Shown piece after piece: positions 1 through 22,354 of a DNA stretch of 64,000 nt. The number at the start of each line of letters is the position of its first letter. Position 1 is the stretch's first letter. The stretch comes from an uncultured Flavobacteriaceae bacterium. Its GTDB lineage: Bacteria; Bacteroidota; Bacteroidia; Flavobacteriales; Flavobacteriaceae. The notes under the pieces were generated by a model. The model saw only the letters and a list, made by a program, of their open reading frames with translations. It was not told where the DNA came from and ran no database searches. Both the position numbers and the translations under genes were made by a program. The DNA is taken from contig CANLXN010000010.1 in assembly GCA_947495135.1 (NCBI GenBank), positions 124,001-188,000 on the forward strand, read 5' to 3'.

Positions 1-1372
1 TTAGTGAGAATACGGCACGCATTGCACCTAAAAATTTGTTGTCACGCTTATTCGAACAACAAAACAAAGATAAATTTGCAGACATTTTTGATCAAACCCT
101 ACTCAATGTTGCTAAAGATAATATTGATATTTTCTCGGTACTTACACAAGGTGGCGAAAAAGTAGTCTTGTTTGAAAACCTAAGCAAGTATGTAACCGAT
201 AACAAAGATGCCTTTTGCAAAGCCATAGTAAACAAACTGGTAAATTTTAGTTTTGAACATATCTTCACACAGAAGTTCGATTTCTTTGCAACCATTTTTG
301 AATATTTAATTAAAGATTATAACTCAAATAGTGGGGGAAAGTATGCTGAGTATTTCACACCTCACGCAGTCGCTAAAATTATGGCTGCCTGTTTGGTAAC
401 CGAAGACAATGTAAATAATGCCACCTGTTATGATCCTAGTGCAGGTTCTGGTACTTTGCTCATGAATTTGGCACATGCCATTGGTGAAGATAAATGTACC
501 ATCTACTCACAAGATATTTCACAAAAATCTTCTGCATTATTGCGTTTAAACCTTATTTTAAACAATCTGGTACATTCCATACAAAACATTATACAAGGCA
601 ATACCATTTTAAGTCCTTATCATAAACAAGACGATGGACAATTAGACCAGTTTGATTATATCGTATCCAACCCACCATTTAAGTTAGATTTTAGCGATTA
701 TAGTGCAGATTAGATAGTAAAGCCAATAAAGAACGCTTTTTTGCAGGCATTCCAAAAGTACCAGCCAAGAAGAAAGACTCTATGGCTATTTACCTATTGT
801 TCATACAGCATATCATGCACAGTTTAACATCAAAAGGAAAAGCCGCTATTGTTGTGCCAACAGGTTTTATTACAGCACAATCTGGTATTGATAAAAAGAT
901 TAGAAAAAAACTGGTAGAAAGCAAAATGTTAGCAGGTGTCGTAAGTATGCCGTCTAACATATTTGCAACGACTGGGACTAATGTAAGTATTTTGTTTTTA
1001 GACAAAACCAATACTAAAGATGTAGTGTTGGTAGATGCCTCTAATTTAGGAAGCAAAGTCAAAGACAGCAATGGCAACCAAAAGACTTTATTAAGTGAGA
1101 AAGAAGAGCAGAGAATAATAGATGTTTTTAATGCTAAAGAAGTACAAGATGACTTTTCTGTAGTGGTTAGTTATGAAGACATTGAAGCCAAAAACTATTC
1201 GTTGAGTGCAGGACAGTATTTTGAAATTAAAATTGAATATATTGATATTACAGCGGAAGAGTTTAATGCTAAAATAAAAGGTTTTGAAAGTAAATTGGGA
1301 GCCTTGTTTTCTGAATCAAAAAAATTAGAAAAGGAAATTCAGAGTAATTTGAAAGAATTGAACTATGAATGA
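1..1372 (+). pseudogene. hsdM: Type I restriction-modification DNA methylase HsdM, 5'-truncated by window edge and frameshifted
   Basis: Adenine-N6 methyltransferase subunit of a type I restriction-modification system. It would transfer a methyl group from SAM to DNA, guided by HsdS. The reading frame is already open at base 3, so the N-terminal helical domain lies upstream of the window. Motif I (DPSAGSG, near 433-453) and the catalytic NPPF motif (near 670-681) are both visible. The frame stops at 711-713, and the homologous sequence continues at once in another frame (LDSKANKERFF, then the C-terminal part from 782). One missing base near 710, in the run gattaga, explains this: with one extra T the two parts join cleanly. 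It could be a real disabling mutation, a slippage site, or a sequencing error. The last codons overlap hsdS by 8 nt. Confidence 0.85.
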
Positions 1373-2564
1373 ATTCAGATTAAAGGATTTACTAGAAATA
1401 AAGAATGGTAGAGATTACAAGCATCTAAATGATGGTTCTATACCTGTTTATGGGAGTGGTGGCTTAATGAGATACGTTGATGAATCCCTTTATGATGGAA
1501 AAAGTATTTTATTACCTAGAAAAGGAACTTTAAGTAATATACAGTATGTAAACGAATCATTTTGGACAGTTGATACTATTTATTATTCGATTGTTGACGA
1601 AGATAAGGCTGATCCATACTTCTTATATAATTATATCAAACTATTAGATTTAGAGCACTTAAACTCTGGTACAGGTGTTCCAAGTATGACATTTGGTGCT
1701 TACTATGATGTGCCAATTATTCTACCTGATCTTACTATACAAAAACAAATCGCCAAAGTCTTATCCGATTTAGATGCTAAGATTGAAGTCAACAACAAAA
1801 TCAACCAAGATTTAGAGGTGATGACAAAAACGATTTACGACTATTGGTTTGTACAGTTTGATTTTCCAGATGCTAATGGTAAGCCTTATAAATCGTCTGG
1901 TGGAACAATGGTGTATAATGAGGAGTTGAAACGTGAGATTCCTGAGGGTTGGGAAGTTAAAAAAATCAACGATATAGCTAAAACTGGCTCTGGAGGAACA
2001 CCTTTAAAATCAAAAAAAGAATATTATGATAACGGTAATATACCTTGGATAAATAGTGGCGAAGTAAATGCTTCATTTATAATTTCCGCAAAAAAGTTTA
2101 TCTCTCAATTAGGTTTAGAAAAGTCTAGCGCAAAATTATTTAAAAAAGGAACTATACTCATGGCAATGTATGGAGCAACGGCTGGTCAGGTTAGTTTAAT
2201 GGATATTGAAGCAACCACTAATCAGGCAATTTGCGGAATAAATACTAAAGATGAGAAATTGAAATATTATACTAAATTTTCATTAGAAGATATGTATCAA
2301 TATTTAATCAATTTAAGCACTGGTTCAGCAAGAGATAATTTGTCACAAGATAAAATTAGGAACTTAAATATCGTGATTCCTGAAGAGAATTCGATTTCAA
2401 ATTTTCATAAAATAATAGAGCCTAATTTTGATAAAATATTAATAAACTTAAAACAAAACCAAAAACTCGCCGAGTTACGCGATTGGTTGTTACCTATGCT
2501 TATGAATGGACAGGTTACTGTTGGTGAGGTTGAGAGTGAAACTAATCAAAATGTTAACGTATGA
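1365..2564 (+). CDS. hsdS: Type I restriction-modification specificity subunit HsdS
   Basis: 399-aa DNA-recognition subunit of a type I system; it sets the target sequence for methylation and cleavage. Two target-recognition halves can be seen. The first is about residues 1-150 (GRDYKHLNDGSIPVYGSGG, a typical TRD start). It is followed by a helical spacer (QKQIAKVLSDLDAKIEVNN), and then a second TRD at about 190-385 starting PEGWEVKKINDIAKTGSGG. The C-terminal helix repeats the spacer pattern (LAELRDWLLPMLMNGQ). The start ATG lies inside the hsdM end and its stop overlaps the next gene by 4 nt, so translation is probably coupled. The length is normal for a two-TRD HsdS. No hsdR is present in the window. 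Confidence 0.9.
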   Translation: MNEFRLKDLLEIKNGRDYKHLNDGSIPVYGSGGLMRYVDESLYDGKSILLPRKGTLSNIQYVNESFWTVDTIYYSIVDEDKADPYFLYNYIKLLDLEHLNSGTGVPSMTFGAYYDVPIILPDLTIQKQIAKVLSDLDAKIEVNNKINQDLEVMTKTIYDYWFVQFDFPDANGKPYKSSGGTMVYNEELKREIPEGWEVKKINDIAKTGSGGTPLKSKKEYYDNGNIPWINSGEVNASFIISAKKFISQLGLEKSSAKLFKKGTILMAMYGATAGQVSLMDIEATTNQAICGINTKDEKLKYYTKFSLEDMYQYLINLSTGSARDNLSQDKIRNLNIVIPEENSISNFHKIIEPNFDKILINLKQNQKLAELRDWLLPMLMNGQVTVGEVESETNQNVNV

Positions 2565-4504
2565 GATTGGCGGCATTATATATTCCGGGAAATATGTTAC
2601 CACATGTCTTTGGTGACGATCACGAAGATTTAACAATCAACTTTGGAGGTAAATATATATACAAGGTAAAAAATGATAAAGTCGTTGAAAAAAAACTTAA
2701 TAATAAATTCATTCCTGAACTGTGGGATTCTATAACATTATTAAGTGCTATTGTCGGTGCGAATGGAACTGGTAAATCAAGTTTACTAAACTGTTTTAGA
2801 GGTAACTCTTTCTGTTTAAGCGTATATGAGAATGAAATTAATGATGAATATGAAATTACCGCAATAGAAAGTGCTTATCAAGATTTTTTTTATTACACCC
2901 CCCATTTTGAAATGATTTCGGAAGGTTCTGAAAATAATAATTTCCGAGATATTTCAAAATTTCCATTAATGGTTGATGATGTTGAATATGAACGAAATGA
3001 TCTTACCACTCTATTGGAATTGCATGCCTCTGAAAACTTAAAGCGCTGGATAAAATTCTCAAATCTAGAATTTCTTAAAGAAGATAAAATTGATCTACCA
3101 ATTTTTGATAAGATTAAGATTAAGATTAATCATATCCCCATAAGAGAAAGTGAAACTTCCTATAAGTTTAGAGATTTCTTTCGGAGATTTAAAGAAATAG
3201 AAAGTGAGCAAAGGCCTATTGATGAACAAAAAAAATTGGATGAAGCCGGTCTAAAAACTAGCGAAGAAGTTAGAAGATCGAACGTAAACAATCAACTTCG
3301 TTTGAGTTACGAAATTATTTCAAGAGTTATTGATAAAACTCAAAATATACTTGAAGCTACGGACAATAAATTTTTAATTGAAGGATATATTAATAGCGAT
3401 TGGGACACGGACAGTCTGGAATTTACAAAGCACGCTAAAAGCTTAAAGCGTTCGTTCTACTGGTTTTTAGAAAACGCTTATGTTCAATTAAGTTCTAAAT
3501 CGGAAAAAAAATATTTACCAAAAAAGGAAATTTCAGCCCTCTTAGAAGCTTTGTTAAAACACATTCCTGAAAATGATGAGATAAAAAATTGGACGGAGAT
3601 GAATGTTTCTCAAGAAGCGGCTTTAGAGATTTTGGAGACCTATGAACAATTTTTATTAGCCTTCAAAGATGACTTTGCGTTCGACAGAAAAATACTTTTA
3701 ACCTTCAGTCCGTATAGACGTTTAAGCTCAGGTGAAAGAGGAATGTATAATCTATTTTCATCATTTCTTGATTTGAAATATCGATATGAGAATAGTATCG
3801 CTAATGATTATTTCAAATTCGGCAAGAAAGATACATTGGCAAACGATCTGGCCATTCTAATTGATGAGGGTGATTTAGGTTTTCATCCGCATTGGAAAAA
3901 GAAGTATGTTCATTTTTTGATTACTATTTTACCAAAAATATTTTCCACCCAATCTCTTCAAATCATTATCGCTACACATGATCCATTGACTTTATCCGAC
4001 ATTCCGAACAATAATATTGTCTATATGACAAAGCGTTTAGGAGAATATTCTGAAATTTTGGACAAATTTAAAAACCCAAAACAATCATTTGGCGCAAATA
4101 TAACTGATTTATTAGCGGATTCTTTTTTTGTTGAAAATGGTTTGATAGGAGATTTTGCAAAGGGGAAAATTGAAGAAGTTATAAATTGGCTAAATTATAA
4201 GATACTTACTGATGAAATAGTCGCGATAAAGTATAAGTTACTTAACGGAATTGAGGATGAAAGTACGAAGCTCCTCAAAAGTAAAACGGAGGAAGCAAAA
4301 CTTTTACATGATTCTAGATTAGAATTAACCTCGGAATATTGTTTTTCTTTGATAAACATTGTAGACGAGCCGCTTCTCAAATATAAATTAGAAGAGATGT
4401 ATTATTTAGCGTTTCCAGAAAAATTGCAAGAAAATAATACTAAAGAACAAATCAAGGCATTTGCGCGAAAACTGGGTAGAGATGATATAGCAGGAAAGAT
4501 ATGA
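2561..4504 (+). CDS. AAA/ABC-type ATPase, Septu PtuA-like
   Basis: 647-aa ATPase of the overcoming-lysogenization/SMC-like type. Walker A is GANGTGKS at residues 66-73, the ABC signature-like LSSGER is at 388-393, Walker B is ILIDEGD with D435-E436, and a switch histidine is H473 in ATHDP. A long charged, helical insert lies between Walker A and the signature, as in PtuA-type ATPases. The start ATG overlaps the hsdS stop and its stop overlaps the following HNH gene, both as ATGA. A large ATPase followed directly by an HNH nuclease is the arrangement of the anti-phage system Septu (PtuAB), also used as the effector of some retrons. No reverse transcriptase is present here, so Septu-like is the better name. 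The exact subtype is inferred. Confidence 0.75.
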   Translation: MRLAALYIPGNMLPHVFGDDHEDLTINFGGKYIYKVKNDKVVEKKLNNKFIPELWDSITLLSAIVGANGTGKSSLLNCFRGNSFCLSVYENEINDEYEITAIESAYQDFFYYTPHFEMISEGSENNNFRDISKFPLMVDDVEYERNDLTTLLELHASENLKRWIKFSNLEFLKEDKIDLPIFDKIKIKINHIPIRESETSYKFRDFFRRFKEIESEQRPIDEQKKLDEAGLKTSEEVRRSNVNNQLRLSYEIISRVIDKTQNILEATDNKFLIEGYINSDWDTDSLEFTKHAKSLKRSFYWFLENAYVQLSSKSEKKYLPKKEISALLEALLKHIPENDEIKNWTEMNVSQEAALEILETYEQFLLAFKDDFAFDRKILLTFSPYRRLSSGERGMYNLFSSFLDLKYRYENSIANDYFKFGKKDTLANDLAILIDEGDLGFHPHWKKKYVHFLITILPKIFSTQSLQIIIATHDPLTLSDIPNNNIVYMTKRLGEYSEILDKFKNPKQSFGANITDLLADSFFVENGLIGDFAKGKIEEVINWLNYKILTDEIVAIKYKLLNGIEDESTKLLKSKTEEAKLLHDSRLELTSEYCFSLINIVDEPLLKYKLEEMYYLAFPEKLQENNTKEQIKAFARKLGRDDIAGKI

Positions 4505-5511
4505 TATACTTGGGAGATCAAATGACTGCATTAAACGCTTATAGCAAAGAAGCTGTGTGTTGGCTAAATATCAAACTATTTGGTAAGTTGAAACCAAATG
4601 GAATGGGTTATAAATGTTCGGATTCAAATTGCATTATTTGTAATAAGGATTTAAGAAAGAACACAGCAATTAATGATGTTTTCAGGGGATTGTTTAGTAG
4701 CCAAATTATTGAGGACGTCGTTAAAAGCAAACCTAATCAATTGCTAGCCTTAATAGCCACATTAATTGCTCAATATATACCTCCATCTATTGCTGAAGAT
4801 GATTCGTTTGATATACAATGTAAGAAATTGTTTGTGACATCTGGATACCTTGGTTGGTTTCAAAAAAAGGATGAAAATACCCCTCAGTTGAAATGGAATT
4901 ACAGATTAGCTCTTCTTTTAGACAAACATGCATGTACCTACTGCAATAGAGAATATATTTTCGTTTATGAAAATAAAAATGGCGGTAAGGGGATGGTCCC
5001 TCAATTTGACCATTGGTTCGCAAAAACTGATTTTCCGTTATTAGCATTGTCATTCTATAATCTAATTCCTTCTTGTGCAACTTGCAATGGCATTAAATCT
5101 GACATAGAAATGAACCTAGGAGATCATTTGCATCCTTATGTGGACCCTAATATTTCAGATTCATATCGCTTTAGCTATTTTTTGAACTCTATAGATGCCC
5201 TTAAGGTTGTTTTAAAAAACAACTCTTTGCTCAGTTTTAAACCTGAGAAAACTTTTAAGGCTCTCAATTTAGAAATGATTTATAAAGGCCATTCTGGTAA
5301 AGAATTAAAAGACTTATATGAGCTTAGATATAAATACTCGGAAAACTACCTTAAGATTTTACTAGAAAATACGTTTGGGAATTTGTCAATGACAGATCAA
5401 GAAAAGTATCGATTAATATTTGGGATTGAACTAGACGACGAAAATTATCATAAACGAATTATGAGTAAGTTCAAAAAAGACATAATTACAGAATTATTAA
5501 ATAATACATAG
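4501..5511 (+). CDS. HNH endonuclease, Septu PtuB-like
   Basis: 336-aa HNH nuclease, the probable effector partner of the upstream ATPase. The fold is marked by CTYC (C145, C148), the FDHW segment with D170-H171, a conserved N187 in FYNLIPSC, and a second zinc pair C192-x2-C195 followed by N196 and K199. The pattern CxxC...DH...NLIPSCxxCNxxK is typical of PtuB-like HNH proteins. There is also an N-terminal cysteine cluster (C39, C44, C47), possibly a second metal site. It overlaps the ATPase by 4 nt and is 3 nt from the Mrr gene. By analogy with PtuB it should cut DNA or a host target when triggered by phage. The trigger cannot be read from the sequence. Confidence 0.75.
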   Translation: MIYLGDQMTALNAYSKEAVCWLNIKLFGKLKPNGMGYKCSDSNCIICNKDLRKNTAINDVFRGLFSSQIIEDVVKSKPNQLLALIATLIAQYIPPSIAEDDSFDIQCKKLFVTSGYLGWFQKKDENTPQLKWNYRLALLLDKHACTYCNREYIFVYENKNGGKGMVPQFDHWFAKTDFPLLALSFYNLIPSCATCNGIKSDIEMNLGDHLHPYVDPNISDSYRFSYFLNSIDALKVVLKNNSLLSFKPEKTFKALNLEMIYKGHSGKELKDLYELRYKYSENYLKILLENTFGNLSMTDQEKYRLIFGIELDDENYHKRIMSKFKKDIITELLNNT

Positions 5512-5514
5512 CAA

Positions 5515-6447
5515 ATGCCCATACCAAAACATTTTGAAATTCGCGTTCCTGCCTTGCAATTACTTCAAGACGAAGGAACCTTAAAGCTTAATGAAATTGT
5601 GACCTCGCTTGGTGAACAATTTCAACTTAATGAAGAAGCTATGTCGGAAATGTATCCTTCCGGCAACGGCCATATTTTTTATGACCGTGTAAGTTGGGCA
5701 CTTAGTTACTTGAATATGGCAGATTTGTTGGATAAGCCAAAAAGAGGGCTTTACAAGATTAATGATACTGGTATGCTACTATTACAAACACCAGAGAAGG
5801 TAAATAAATATGTAGACTCTAAAGTCAATGAGCGTGAAATACCAAGTAAATCTAAGAAAAGTTCTCAGTTGGATGAAGAAATTAACGAATCAACCAATAG
5901 CAGTACTCCCTCTGAAAAACTATATAATTCTTTTGAGAAAATAAAAGCTGCTCGGAAAACGGAGGTTTTAAATATGATACTGAGTAAAACTCCATATGAG
6001 TTTGAAAATCTAGTGGTGCAACTTTTACAAAAGATGGGATATGGAGGTGAGATCAAGGATTCTGGTTTAGTCACAAAAGCATCCAATGATGGTGGTATTG
6101 ATGGAATTATAAAAGAAGACGAATTGGGGTTAGGTAGAATTCATATTCAAGCCAAAAGATATGACCACAAAAATGGGGTTGGGAGAGACGATATTCAAAG
6201 GTTTGCAGGTGCCCTCTTAGGAGCGCCAATGAGTAAAGGAGTTTTTATAACTACATCTTACTTTTCTAAGGGAGCCATTGAATATGTAGACAAATTGAAC
6301 AATGCAACAATTATTCTTATCGATGGTGACCAATTAGCAGAATACATTTACAAATTTGGATTGGGGATGCAAGTGGTTCAAACCATCGAGATTAAAAAAT
6401 TGGATACGGATTTTTGGGATACGATGAAGGATAACTCAAATGGTTAG
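5515..6447 (+). CDS. mrr: Mrr-type restriction endonuclease
   Basis: 310-aa protein with the two Mrr domains. The N-terminal winged-helix domain, about residues 1-95 (Mrr_N, PF14338 type), opens with PKHFEIRVPALQLLQDEG. The C-terminal nuclease domain, about 155-290, opens with YEFENLVVQLLQKMGYGG and carries the PD-(D/E)xK-like core GGIDG (D196) and QAK (Q212-K214). Mrr enzymes are type IV or stand-alone restriction enzymes that cleave methylated DNA, or DNA of particular structure. The gene starts 3 nt after the HNH stop. An Mrr enzyme beside a type I methylase is notable, because some Mrr proteins attack DNA modified by foreign type I or III methylases. Confidence 0.88.
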   Translation: MPIPKHFEIRVPALQLLQDEGTLKLNEIVTSLGEQFQLNEEAMSEMYPSGNGHIFYDRVSWALSYLNMADLLDKPKRGLYKINDTGMLLLQTPEKVNKYVDSKVNEREIPSKSKKSSQLDEEINESTNSSTPSEKLYNSFEKIKAARKTEVLNMILSKTPYEFENLVVQLLQKMGYGGEIKDSGLVTKASNDGGIDGIIKEDELGLGRIHIQAKRYDHKNGVGRDDIQRFAGALLGAPMSKGVFITTSYFSKGAIEYVDKLNNATIILIDGDQLAEYIYKFGLGMQVVQTIEIKKLDTDFWDTMKDNSNG

Positions 6448-6450
6448 ACG

Positions 6451-7344
6451 ATGGAAGAGGATAAACTTATTAAAATTGAGAAATCTATTCGGTCCTATCG
6501 AGCCGTAGCCTTTGCATGCATAGTTCTGGGTTTTCTTTGCATATTTGTTGTCTTTTATGAGAATCAGTTCGTTGGACCAATGAAATGGAATGAAATTGGT
6601 GATTATTTGGGGGGAACTATGGTGGGACTATGGTCGTTAGCAGGTCTATTTTTTATTTATGTAGCTTTCTTAGGCCAAAGGTTAGATATACAGTTAACGA
6701 AAAAGGAACTTGAAGAGACTCGAAAAGTCCACTCAAGAAATACGACACTCATCAATAGGCAACAATTTGACAATTTGTTTTTTAATTTAATTCAAACACA
6801 TATTCAAATTGTAGCAGATTTAGACGCAACATTTCAGGTGATAAATCACCTTAATCAATATGAAACTACTAACTCGCAAGGAAGAGATGTATTTAGAGAT
6901 GCATTTATTCAATATATGCAGCCGGTTAAGGAAGGGGCGGATAGGCTAGAGGCATACCATAAATTATATAATGCGAATAGAGGTGAATTTGGTCATTATT
7001 ACAGATTCCTTTATCGTTTGATTGATACGGTGGAAAGAAAGCAATTTGTCGAGGAATTAGATATAAAAGGAAAAATTCCAGATCATGAGTATAAAAAAAT
7101 TAAAGAGAAGATGAATTTTGACATTCAATATGAATATACGTCTATAGTTCGCTCATTATTATCAGATGATGAGTTGGAATTGCTTTTTTATAATATGCTA
7201 CATTTCGATGAATTGAAGTTTAAAAGACTTATTGAGAAATATGTTTTATTAAAGAACATACCTAATGGTGAAAAGAAGATATCTATGACGGCATATAATT
7301 TCAATCCGGGAGCAATCAAGAAAGAAGAAAATCCTCATTTCTAA
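6451..7344 (+). CDS. Putative phage abortive infection protein (AbiC-like membrane protein)
   Basis: 297-aa protein with two N-terminal membrane segments (about residues 17-37 and 52-75) and a long cytoplasmic helical domain. The segment FDNLFFNLIQTH at 106-117, the later LYRLIDTV and the C-terminal ELELLFYNML region match my memory of the putative phage abortive infection family (putAbiC, PF16872). It begins 3 nt after mrr and is the last gene of the defence operon, so it is likely co-expressed. By family analogy it would kill or arrest the infected cell. The mechanism is unknown to me, and no nuclease or toxin motif is visible. Confidence 0.7.
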   Translation: MEEDKLIKIEKSIRSYRAVAFACIVLGFLCIFVVFYENQFVGPMKWNEIGDYLGGTMVGLWSLAGLFFIYVAFLGQRLDIQLTKKELEETRKVHSRNTTLINRQQFDNLFFNLIQTHIQIVADLDATFQVINHLNQYETTNSQGRDVFRDAFIQYMQPVKEGADRLEAYHKLYNANRGEFGHYYRFLYRLIDTVERKQFVEELDIKGKIPDHEYKKIKEKMNFDIQYEYTSIVRSLLSDDELELLFYNMLHFDELKFKRLIEKYVLLKNIPNGEKKISMTAYNFNPGAIKKEENPHF

Positions 7345-7427: not shown

Positions 7428-7712
7428 ATGCCCAACAAAACCCCCACCCCCTGGAAAACAGCCCTTCTCGAGTTTATCGAGCTCATCTTAAAAAGTTTGG
7501 GCGGCAAAAGAAAACGGACTTGGCATCAACATGTCGTACCCTATGAAGACGATTGGGCGGTGCGGCGTGAGGGGAATAAGCGGATTACTTCTAAGCATAG
7601 AAAGCAATCTACTGCTATTAAGAAGGCCAAAACCATTGCAAGGAAGCATAAGGCAGATGTCATTATTCATCGCGCGGATGGGACGATACGGGATCGGATT
7701 AATTATGATTAA
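7428..7712 (+). CDS. DUF2188 domain protein
   Basis: 94-aa basic protein. Residues about 36-94 form a DUF2188 domain, recognised by VVPYEDDWAVRREGNKR, a run of helix KQSTAIKKAKTIARKHKAD and the closing strand VIIHRADGTIRDRINYD. The N-terminal 35 residues are an extra helical extension. The function of DUF2188 proteins is not established. The gene stands 83 nt after the defence operon on the same strand, so it may be a passenger of the island or the first host gene. No promoter was identified. Confidence 0.75.
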   Translation: MPNKTPTPWKTALLEFIELILKSLGGKRKRTWHQHVVPYEDDWAVRREGNKRITSKHRKQSTAIKKAKTIARKHKADVIIHRADGTIRDRINYD

Positions 7713-21923: not shown

Positions 21924-21973
21924 AAGTTTAATCCGCGTGCGTAAGCACGCTTGAAGGTGGAGCCGGAGGGATT
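21888..21973. repeat. Copy 2 of the 86-bp repeat, overlapping the tmRNA 3' end
   Basis: Partner of copy 1 at 21563-21648. Here the unit continues into the full tmRNA gene, so this is the likely parent copy. Confidence 0.85.
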
Positions 21974-22354
21974 CGAACCCTCGTCCAAACAAGCAATGAC
22001 AATGCTTTCTACATGTTTAGTTTTCATTTAAATTTTCGAGAAGTTGCCGGTCGAAAACTACCAACGCGTTCCTTATCCTAAATTAGATGTCTCAGATATA
22101 TCTAGGCACTATATCCAATAGGTCTACTTTTACGAAGTCACTATATCAAATGCCGCAAACCAAGGCCTTTGAGTGACTTCCTGCTTTCCCACCTTGTGGG
22201 ACGAGGCGTAATCCTACTGTAATTCAGATTATGCAGCTAGGGCGTAGTTATTCTCGCCGTTTAAAAAGTTTGAAAAATGAGATTTACGAGCTGTTTCCCA
22301 GCGCTCGACATGCTTACAATACCATTAGACCCGCTGTCAAAACCAGTCGGCCCC
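21956..22354 (-). ncRNA. ssrA: tmRNA (ssrA)
   Basis: About 399-nt transfer-messenger RNA, which rescues stalled ribosomes and tags proteins for degradation. The 5' end GGGGCCG (from 22354) pairs with CGGCTCC near the 3' end to form a 7-bp acceptor stem. A T-arm GAGGGTTCGAATCCCTC and the early GACTGGTTTTGACAGCGGG segment are present. The tag reading frame ends NGENNYALAA then TAA (about 22227-22256), the expected Bacteroidota tag ending. The DNA after the discriminator A reads CCT rather than CCA, so the final A must be added after processing. The resume codon is not certain. SmpB would be the partner; its gene is not in the window. Confidence 0.95.

Follow-up and report, generated by a model that had tools for sequence, protein, structure and literature searches.

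At the start of a 64,000-nucleotide stretch of DNA from an uncultured Flavobacteriaceae bacterium (positions 124,001-188,000 of contig CANLXN010000010.1, in a draft genome of 45 contigs; hereafter, the window), a type I restriction-modification (R-M) operon is followed by genes for an ABC-type ATPase, an HNH nuclease, an Mrr-type nuclease and a putAbiC protein. In what we consider a probable reading, the 3' end of this hsdR-hsdM-hsdS operon is a slot for interchangeable defense cargo, here the ATPase-HNH pair (the PADLOC candidate system PDC-M62), Mrr and putAbiC, and the whole would form a layered defense with an abortive back-up. The arrangement is real and not unprecedented; it is a variant of type I operons with embedded defense genes, and its core recurs. 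The newest element is a proposed exchange of effectors inside the ATPase gene. The evidence was read from the sequence and comprises gene order, gene families, recurrence of the core, mosaic ancestry of the cargo and an apparent history shared by the ATPase tail and the HNH nuclease.

Organization of the gene cluster

The seven genes lie in the order hsdR, hsdM, hsdS, ATPase, HNH, Mrr and putAbiC, all on the forward strand. In window coordinates, the features are as follows.

1-713, forward strand: 5' part of hsdM, type I methyltransferase; start 256 nt left of the window (L002:11745), stop codon at 711-713
710-1372, forward strand: 3' part of hsdM, frameshifted relative to the 5' part
1365-2564, forward strand: hsdS, specificity subunit of 399 amino acids with two Methylase_S stretches
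2561-4504, forward strand: PtuA-like ABC-type ATPase of 647 amino acids, PADLOC PDC-M62A; Walker A at residue 66, LSSGE at 388, LIDEGD at 433
4058-4195, forward strand: ATPase codons 500-545, conserved linker and proposed exchange zone, with a resolution of ~30 codons either way
4196-4501, forward strand: C-terminal tail of the ATPase (codons 546-647), helical and diverging in step with HNH; putative nuclease-docking part
4501-5511, forward strand: HNH nuclease of 336 amino acids, PADLOC PDC-M62B
5515-6447, forward strand: Mrr-type modification-dependent nuclease of 310 amino acids, with Mrr_N and Mrr_cat domains
6451-7344, forward strand: putAbiC (PF16872) protein of 297 amino acids, with two hydrophobic stretches near the N terminus

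An earlier note on this DNA had described a one-direction cluster of six genes with overlaps at 2561 and 4501, and these coordinates were confirmed: 4-nt overlaps join hsdS to the ATPase gene (2561-2564) and the latter to the HNH gene (4501-4504). Its description of the junctions as overlaps or 3-nt gaps also held for the gaps ahead of Mrr and ahead of AbiC, and an 8-nt overlap between hsdM and hsdS was added. As for the six genes, hsdS, ATPase, HNH, Mrr and putAbiC were found as described, whereas hsdM is not one intact gene and hsdR, just upstream, had been missed. The cargo and the hsd genes are probably read from one transcript. A promoter inside the operon was discarded as a candidate: with what we take to be the Bacteroidetes-type consensus, two matches were obtained in L002, both on the opposite strand, a number not above chance expectation.

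The hsdR gene encodes 1035 amino acids with HSDR_N, SWI2_SNF2 and ResIII domains (Pfam) and lies 7 nt upstream of hsdM, outside the window (L002:8630-11737); counting it, hsdR, hsdM and hsdS are present together, as expected of a type I system. The hsdM frame is interrupted in this assembly. Two open reading frames (ORFs), one ending at 713 and the other spanning 782-1372, match different stretches (87-321 and 347-541) of a single PADLOC model for methylases, the second frame starting at window position 710 as judged by HsdM of five relatives. Across the 299 family genomes, hsdM was found at 18 other places, each time within an open frame of 540-560 amino acids. Draft assemblies also yield single-base frameshifts as errors, and the one in hsdM may be a real mutation or an assembly error; unless it is an error, the type I part would be inactive in this assembly.

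If the frameshift is real, the cluster might be a decaying locus that is being lost. The frameshift itself favors this, as does the sole same-genus genome in the sample, where no match to ATPase, AbiC, Mrr or HsdM was found at the cut-offs used; against it stand the other reading frames, which are open and have kept their motifs, and the assembly errors just mentioned. Decay is in our judgment unlikely. An empty site was sought in that same-genus genome, where both flanks lie on different contigs, and no conclusion was drawn.

Recurrence of the core among relatives

Relatives of the pair were taken as the best 80 of 88 confirmed loci, which come from Bacteroidota wherever the tree listing gives the origin; near-copies (L071/L074 and L083/L086) are included, and several loci are the same contigs as genomes of the family sample described below. 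The genes of the relatives are ORF calls labeled by hidden Markov models (HMMs) built from the window's own genes. Counts of loci lacking R-M genes are upper bounds because these HMMs miss other R-M types: BREX (L065), type III (L119) and IIG-like (L020) came only from family searches.

The HNH gene followed the ATPase gene on the same strand, within two ORFs, in all 80 relatives. An R-M gene was present in the upstream same-strand run in 30 loci, a lower bound since 7 of the other 50 have less than 4 kb of upstream sequence, and all three hsd genes were present in 24. Upstream placement of hsd genes exceeds chance: an hsd gene stood immediately before the ATPase gene on the same strand in 20 of the 80 loci (gaps of -4 to 64 nt), as against 1 of the 80 immediately behind the HNH gene. 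By Pfam, two of the 30 R-M loci (L031 and L085) were type ISP and IIG-like, most of the others not having been run on Pfam.

Other R-M partners of the pair were type ISP (L031), IIG-like enzymes with Shedu (L085 and L020) and BREX (L065). The BREX genes (PglX-like, PglZ and BrxL) lie directly upstream of the pair (L065:1600-9915). The IIG-like gene is overlapped by a Shedu (SduA_C) gene, and the pair follows directly in one case (L020:4384-8803) and after two small ORFs in the other (L085:4339-8668).

At the cut-offs used, the family sample (299 genomes, own included) contained the ATPase in 14 genomes, Mrr in 16, AbiC in 8 and HsdM in 18 (19 places). There, 10 of the 14 pairs, own included, stood behind type I genes and 2 behind IIG-like genes (one of them L025, via its twin L085), and hsdM lay within 6 kb of the pair at 5 of its 19 places. 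On the ATPase tree (77 of 81 rows; four sequences of <550 amino acids were dropped), the R-M label changed 13 times, 11 of them forced by well-supported branches, compared to a mean of 24.4 for shuffled labels, with none of 500 shuffles as low. Judged from this tree, the association with R-M genes has been gained or lost many times, yet it is clustered.

The same gene order across genomes, as envisaged in the earlier note, was borne out for the core of type I genes, ATPase and HNH, which occurs in many, but not for the full combination; the exact seven-gene set was found only in this genome. The seven genes were rejected as a fixed system, with Mrr in the same-strand run of two of the 80 relatives and AbiC in that of none. 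A type IV enzyme behind such operons, also part of that proposal, does recur, as Mrr here and as McrBC elsewhere. McrBC takes the place of Mrr in several relatives, directly behind HNH in L035, L039, L064, L066 and L082, for example; it was checked with Pfam in L064 and L082 only, and elsewhere was called by the window-built HMM approach. In the subset with 4 kb of sequence on either side (65 of the 80 loci), type IV enzymes were present in 9 of 27 R-M loci versus 3 of 38 others (Fisher p 0.02), an association that was not accepted as proven, its significance being lost once relatedness was controlled.

Further arrangements were seen around the pair. ATPase-HNH-ATPase triplets, with a second ATPase of 652-682 amino acids directly behind HNH, occur in L030, L034, L071, L074, L083, L086 and L087. 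Two genes of 525 and 897 amino acids recur together downstream in L061 (12933-17200) and L048 (13663-17930); the second protein carries a PLD-like domain in L061, where both proteins also match PADLOC ZacA/ZacB weakly. A RhuM/Fic-like gene (L064:4849-5847, Pfam) and a PDC-S23 gene (L142:4047-5039, PADLOC) stand among the hsd genes of type I operons.

No phage match to the pair was found at 1e-10. With this result, four partial plasmid matches and at least one viral contig among the matches listed, a phage or plasmid home for the pair was rejected; a search for a viral relative of AbiC found none. A literature search, with most subscription papers outside its reach, found no description of this arrangement.

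Mosaic ancestry of the cargo

Five relatives (L064, L072, L048, L098 and L061) have HsdM 91-94% and HsdR 86-87% identical to those of the cluster, while their ATPases are 28-37% identical (best segment). The closest ATPase, 49% identical over 588 columns, is that of L030, with no upstream R-M gene by the HMMs. Similarly, the Mrr protein, which carries Mrr_N and Mrr_cat domains with GGIDG and QAK motifs as expected of this type IV enzyme, has its closest relative (91%) encoded at the end of another type I operon, preceded by a dCTPase-type gene; the second closest (67%) directly precedes hsdR. Neighborhoods were covered for 13 of the 15 other Mrr genomes (G089 and G094 were left out), and Mrr stood beside R-M methylase genes in 5 of these 13 loci. 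For its part, the putAbiC protein scored 59.5 bits with PF16872 (cut-off, 22); PADLOC gave only AbiP, weakly (6.4e-7). The gene for the closest AbiC (54%) follows a type III R-M system at a distance of 25 nt.

Since closely similar HsdM proteins accompany divergent ATPases, and the closest Mrr and AbiC end or follow other R-M operons, the cargo is read as a mosaic, and its genes look like separate acquisitions and not one co-evolved system. The relatives suggest that swapping of this cargo is frequent. The dCTPase-type gene (∼660 amino acids, PADLOC) was seen in two type I operons (L142:7548-9530 and L055:7788-9785); in one it directly precedes Mrr, and in the other it separates hsdS from the ATPase gene.

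Identity of the ATPase-HNH pair

The best PADLOC profiles for the pair were PDC-M62A for the ATPase (8.5e-80) and PDC-M62B for the HNH protein (3.7e-45), as expected of a PDC-M62 member. The earlier note had taken the two genes for Septu. The PADLOC PtuA and PtuB models did match them (2e-18 for the ATPase and 7.8e-7 for HNH), in agreement with a Septu relationship, but PDC-M62 fits far better, and the ATPase missed the cut-off of the NCBIfam PtuA model (NF041760, retron Ec78 effector), with 37.4 bits versus 500.

Walker A, signature and Walker B motifs, typical of PtuA, are all intact in the ATPase, and the expected motifs, under what we take to be their usual names, were found in the ATPase, HNH and Mrr proteins. 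HNH residues C145, C148, D170, H171, N187, C192 and C195 were invariant across 62 sequences. An N-terminal cysteine cluster (C39-x4-C44-x2-C47) is shared with 16 of the 80 relatives, nine R-M-linked and seven not.

For a profile built from 12 ATPases, the top solved chain was the retron Ec83 ATPase (7.4e-11), with Ec78, PtuA and AAA family ATPase chains among the next hits and ABC-F proteins after them at weaker scores; an HNH profile matched no solved PDB chain by sequence. AlphaFold models (mean predicted local distance difference test scores of 86.6 for the ATPase and 92.3 for HNH) were compared with the PDB by Foldseek. The best 50 of 594 matches to the ATPase model all belonged to entries for Septu, type I-A retrons or PARIS, with 4.8e-7 as the best value, and were only local, with template modeling scores by query of 0.14-0.26 and large root mean square deviations. 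For the HNH model, the four best rows (E values of 0.012-0.19) belonged to retron Ec78 complexes; these chains are 205-216 residues long and were interpreted as PtuB. None of the 19 rows for this model fell under 0.001.

Given strong PDC-M62 profiles and only local, weak fold matches to PtuA and PtuB, we call the pair a distant branch of the Septu kind and not a typical Septu, the profiles and predicted folds pointing to PtuA and, weakly, to PtuB. According to the available text of one survey, 203 PDC-M62 calls coincide with Septu calls by another tool (PMC11811056).

A proposed exchange zone within the ATPase

Pairwise distances were compared over 76 rows. Those of the ATPase front (residues 1-100), middle (101-370) and core (371-545) agreed with one another (rank correlations of 0.59-0.72). 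The tail (546-647) correlated at 0.19 with the front, 0.13 with the middle, 0.38 with the core and 0.46 with HNH, while HNH correlated at 0.17, 0.13 and 0.37 with front, middle and core, respectively. When a 60-residue window was slid along the ATPase, correlation with HNH rose from 0.23 (441-500) to 0.52 (501-560), and correlation with the front fell from 0.72 to 0.35 over the same two positions and to 0.16 at 541-600. The observed HNH correlation was reached in 3, 1, 0 and 0 of 200 permutations for front, middle, core and tail, respectively; because all four parts beat most permutations, the case for exchange is made by how large the change is and where it falls. In the AlphaFold model, the ATPase domain ends near residue 500 and is followed by a conserved, low-confidence linker and by helices at 531-646.

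The two gene trees were in agreement with such an exchange. On the HNH tree (80 of 81 rows; L057 was dropped), the window belongs to a supported clade of 10, nine of them R-M-linked (eight of nine without the window), and the ATPases of this clade are scattered across the ATPase tree. Approximately unbiased tests, run on 52 of the 76 rows with a simpler model and with clades picked after the trees had been seen, rejected each gene's clade on the other gene's data (p below 1e-60). Over the whole HNH tree, the R-M label changed 16 times, of which 11 were forced, a fit no tighter than that to the ATPase tree, so that a link between HNH type and R-M is clear only in some clades.

As the ATPase tail shares history with HNH more than with the ATPase front, the sequences suggest that effector cassettes (ATPase tail plus HNH) have been exchanged between sensors. 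A bolder extension, which we offer tentatively and regard as rather doubtful, is that PDC-M62 would be a modular sensor-effector platform whose linker at ∼500-545 fits new nuclease cassettes to old sensors, the HNH clade of the window having specialized, from Septu parts, as a PrrC-like back-up killer of type I operons. Should the proposed exchange zone hold, sensing and killing would reside in parts that are separable in nature, making it directly testable which of them recognizes phage and whether the R-M enzyme is guarded by R-M-linked pairs.

Proposed function and alternative readings

Type I enzymes cut unmethylated sites, and Mrr-type enzymes cut modified DNA. Under the layered defense that we favor, the type I enzyme would cut foreign unmodified DNA and Mrr would cut the modified DNA that evades it. 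The ATPase would keep HNH silent until an infection signal releases it, whereupon the freed HNH would attack RNA or DNA of the infected cell and, together with AbiC, would stop that cell. We infer all of these activities and this division of labor. Among published systems, Septu EcB88 is described as cleaving tRNA-Tyr upon infection, with ATPase and HNH motifs both required (available part of PMC13096335). We also count as precedents TgvAB (PMC11411939) and DarTG2 (PMC12255303), each reported in a type I operon; the accessible text of the former proposes that modified phages are countered by the embedded type IV enzyme, which would in this way complement the type I enzyme.

Several observations weigh against this layered defense. 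By the HMMs used, 50 of the 80 pairs have no upstream R-M gene, and thus the pair needs none. The type IV link, in a tree-paired sign test that controls for relatedness, gave a median p of 0.375. Among the scanned neighbors of the seven other AbiC loci, an R-M gene lies directly upstream in only one; another AbiC relative has a PDC-S06 ATPase gene on one side and a gene for a Drt6-like reverse transcriptase on the other (L120:7553-12873), and the neighbors of the remaining five match no PADLOC family, or only as UvrA-like ATPases, the UvrA label being our own reading. The broken hsdM means that part of the layered defense may be dead. Finally, G+C content is 0.30-0.36 across the operon part of the window and 0.37-0.45 over the next few kilobases, but drops again to 0.35-0.39 at 14-20 kb, so that low G+C alone is no mark of a foreign operon.

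The pair might instead guard the type I enzyme in the way that PrrC guards EcoPrrI, firing once the type I enzyme has been disabled by a phage inhibitor. According to the available text of PMC12707154, the gene for PrrC sits inside a type I locus, PrrC becomes active once the enzyme of that locus is blocked by a phage inhibitor, and PrrC and PARIS are termed R-M guardians. The pair is repeatedly found right after hsdS or hsdR (in 5 of the 20 immediate cases, the genes overlap by 4 nt), AriA of PARIS is also among the matches of the ATPase by profile and by fold, and the R-M-linked HNH clade is in accordance with such a role. This would, however, sit poorly with the many pairs lacking an upstream R-M gene, with the loose R-M labeling of the HNH tree, with the N-terminal cysteine cluster in loci without R-M, and with partners as varied as several type I subfamilies, IIG-like, type ISP and BREX. 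We regard guarding as an improbable account of the pair.

It is less probable still that the genes are plain defense-island neighbors, that is, independent adjoining systems with no functional coupling or shared transcript. Mosaic origins and varying partners would be expected of such neighbors, but the strong bias in direction (20 versus 1 of 80, immediately upstream versus downstream on the same strand) and the overlapping start and stop codons would not. Least credible by a wide measure is the combined modification-guided system of the earlier note, in which HsdM marks self while Mrr and the Septu pair attack foreign methylated DNA: type IV enzymes do recur behind such operons and Mrr does adjoin methylase genes in the 5 of 13 loci noted above, but marking of self by HsdMS may not hold with hsdM broken in this assembly, nothing found shows the pair to be guided by DNA modification, the Septu of the available part of PMC13096335 cleaves tRNA, Mrr and AbiC hardly recur in the same-strand run, and the genes look like separately acquired cargo.

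Surroundings of the cluster

The operon may extend one gene further, an ORF downstream of AbiC being possibly the last gene of the cluster.

7428-7712, forward strand: candidate defense ORF of 94 amino acids, PADLOC PDC-S16; 83 nt after AbiC

A 79% identical copy occurs in Cochleicola gelatinilyticus (L035:18352-18627), at a locus that also has type I, PDC-M62 and McrBC genes. Elsewhere in the window, a tmRNA gene with the tag GENNYALAA lies at 21956-22354 on the reverse strand.

Comparison with known systems

Like the pair, Septu (PtuA-PtuB, with the effectors of type I-A retrons counted in) has an ABC-type ATPase adjoining an HNH nuclease. The proteins studied here differ in being larger, in missing the PtuA cut-off, in fitting the PDC-M62 models far better and in giving only local fold matches. 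PDC-M62, which is known only as a PADLOC candidate, is the best profile for both genes.

The genes of the Escherichia coli immigration control region are ordered mrr-hsd-mcrBC. Type I and type IV enzymes there share one variable locus, as they do here (available text of PMC12707154), but in the window the genes overlap in one direction and the ATPase-HNH pair stands in between.

Septu has also been found with other partners. Operons of Hma (helicase, methyltransferase and ATPase) frequently occur with Septu type I according to the accessible part of the PADLOC paper (PMC8565338), and Septu embedded in Hma is cited by PMC12255303; Hma is not a type I R-M system, whereas the host operon here is hsdRMS. 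Closer in organization are type I R-M operons with TgvAB, DarTG2 or PrrC, which are described as carrying accessory antiviral genes inside or beside the hsd operon (PMC11411939, PMC12255303 and PMC12707154). The cargo differs here, consisting of a Septu-branch pair, Mrr and putAbiC, and lies behind hsdS and not between the hsd genes. What links the pair to the R-M guardians (PrrC and PARIS) is its position and its AriA-like similarity. The cluster joins R-M operons with embedded back-up systems and Septu-type ATPase-nuclease pairs.

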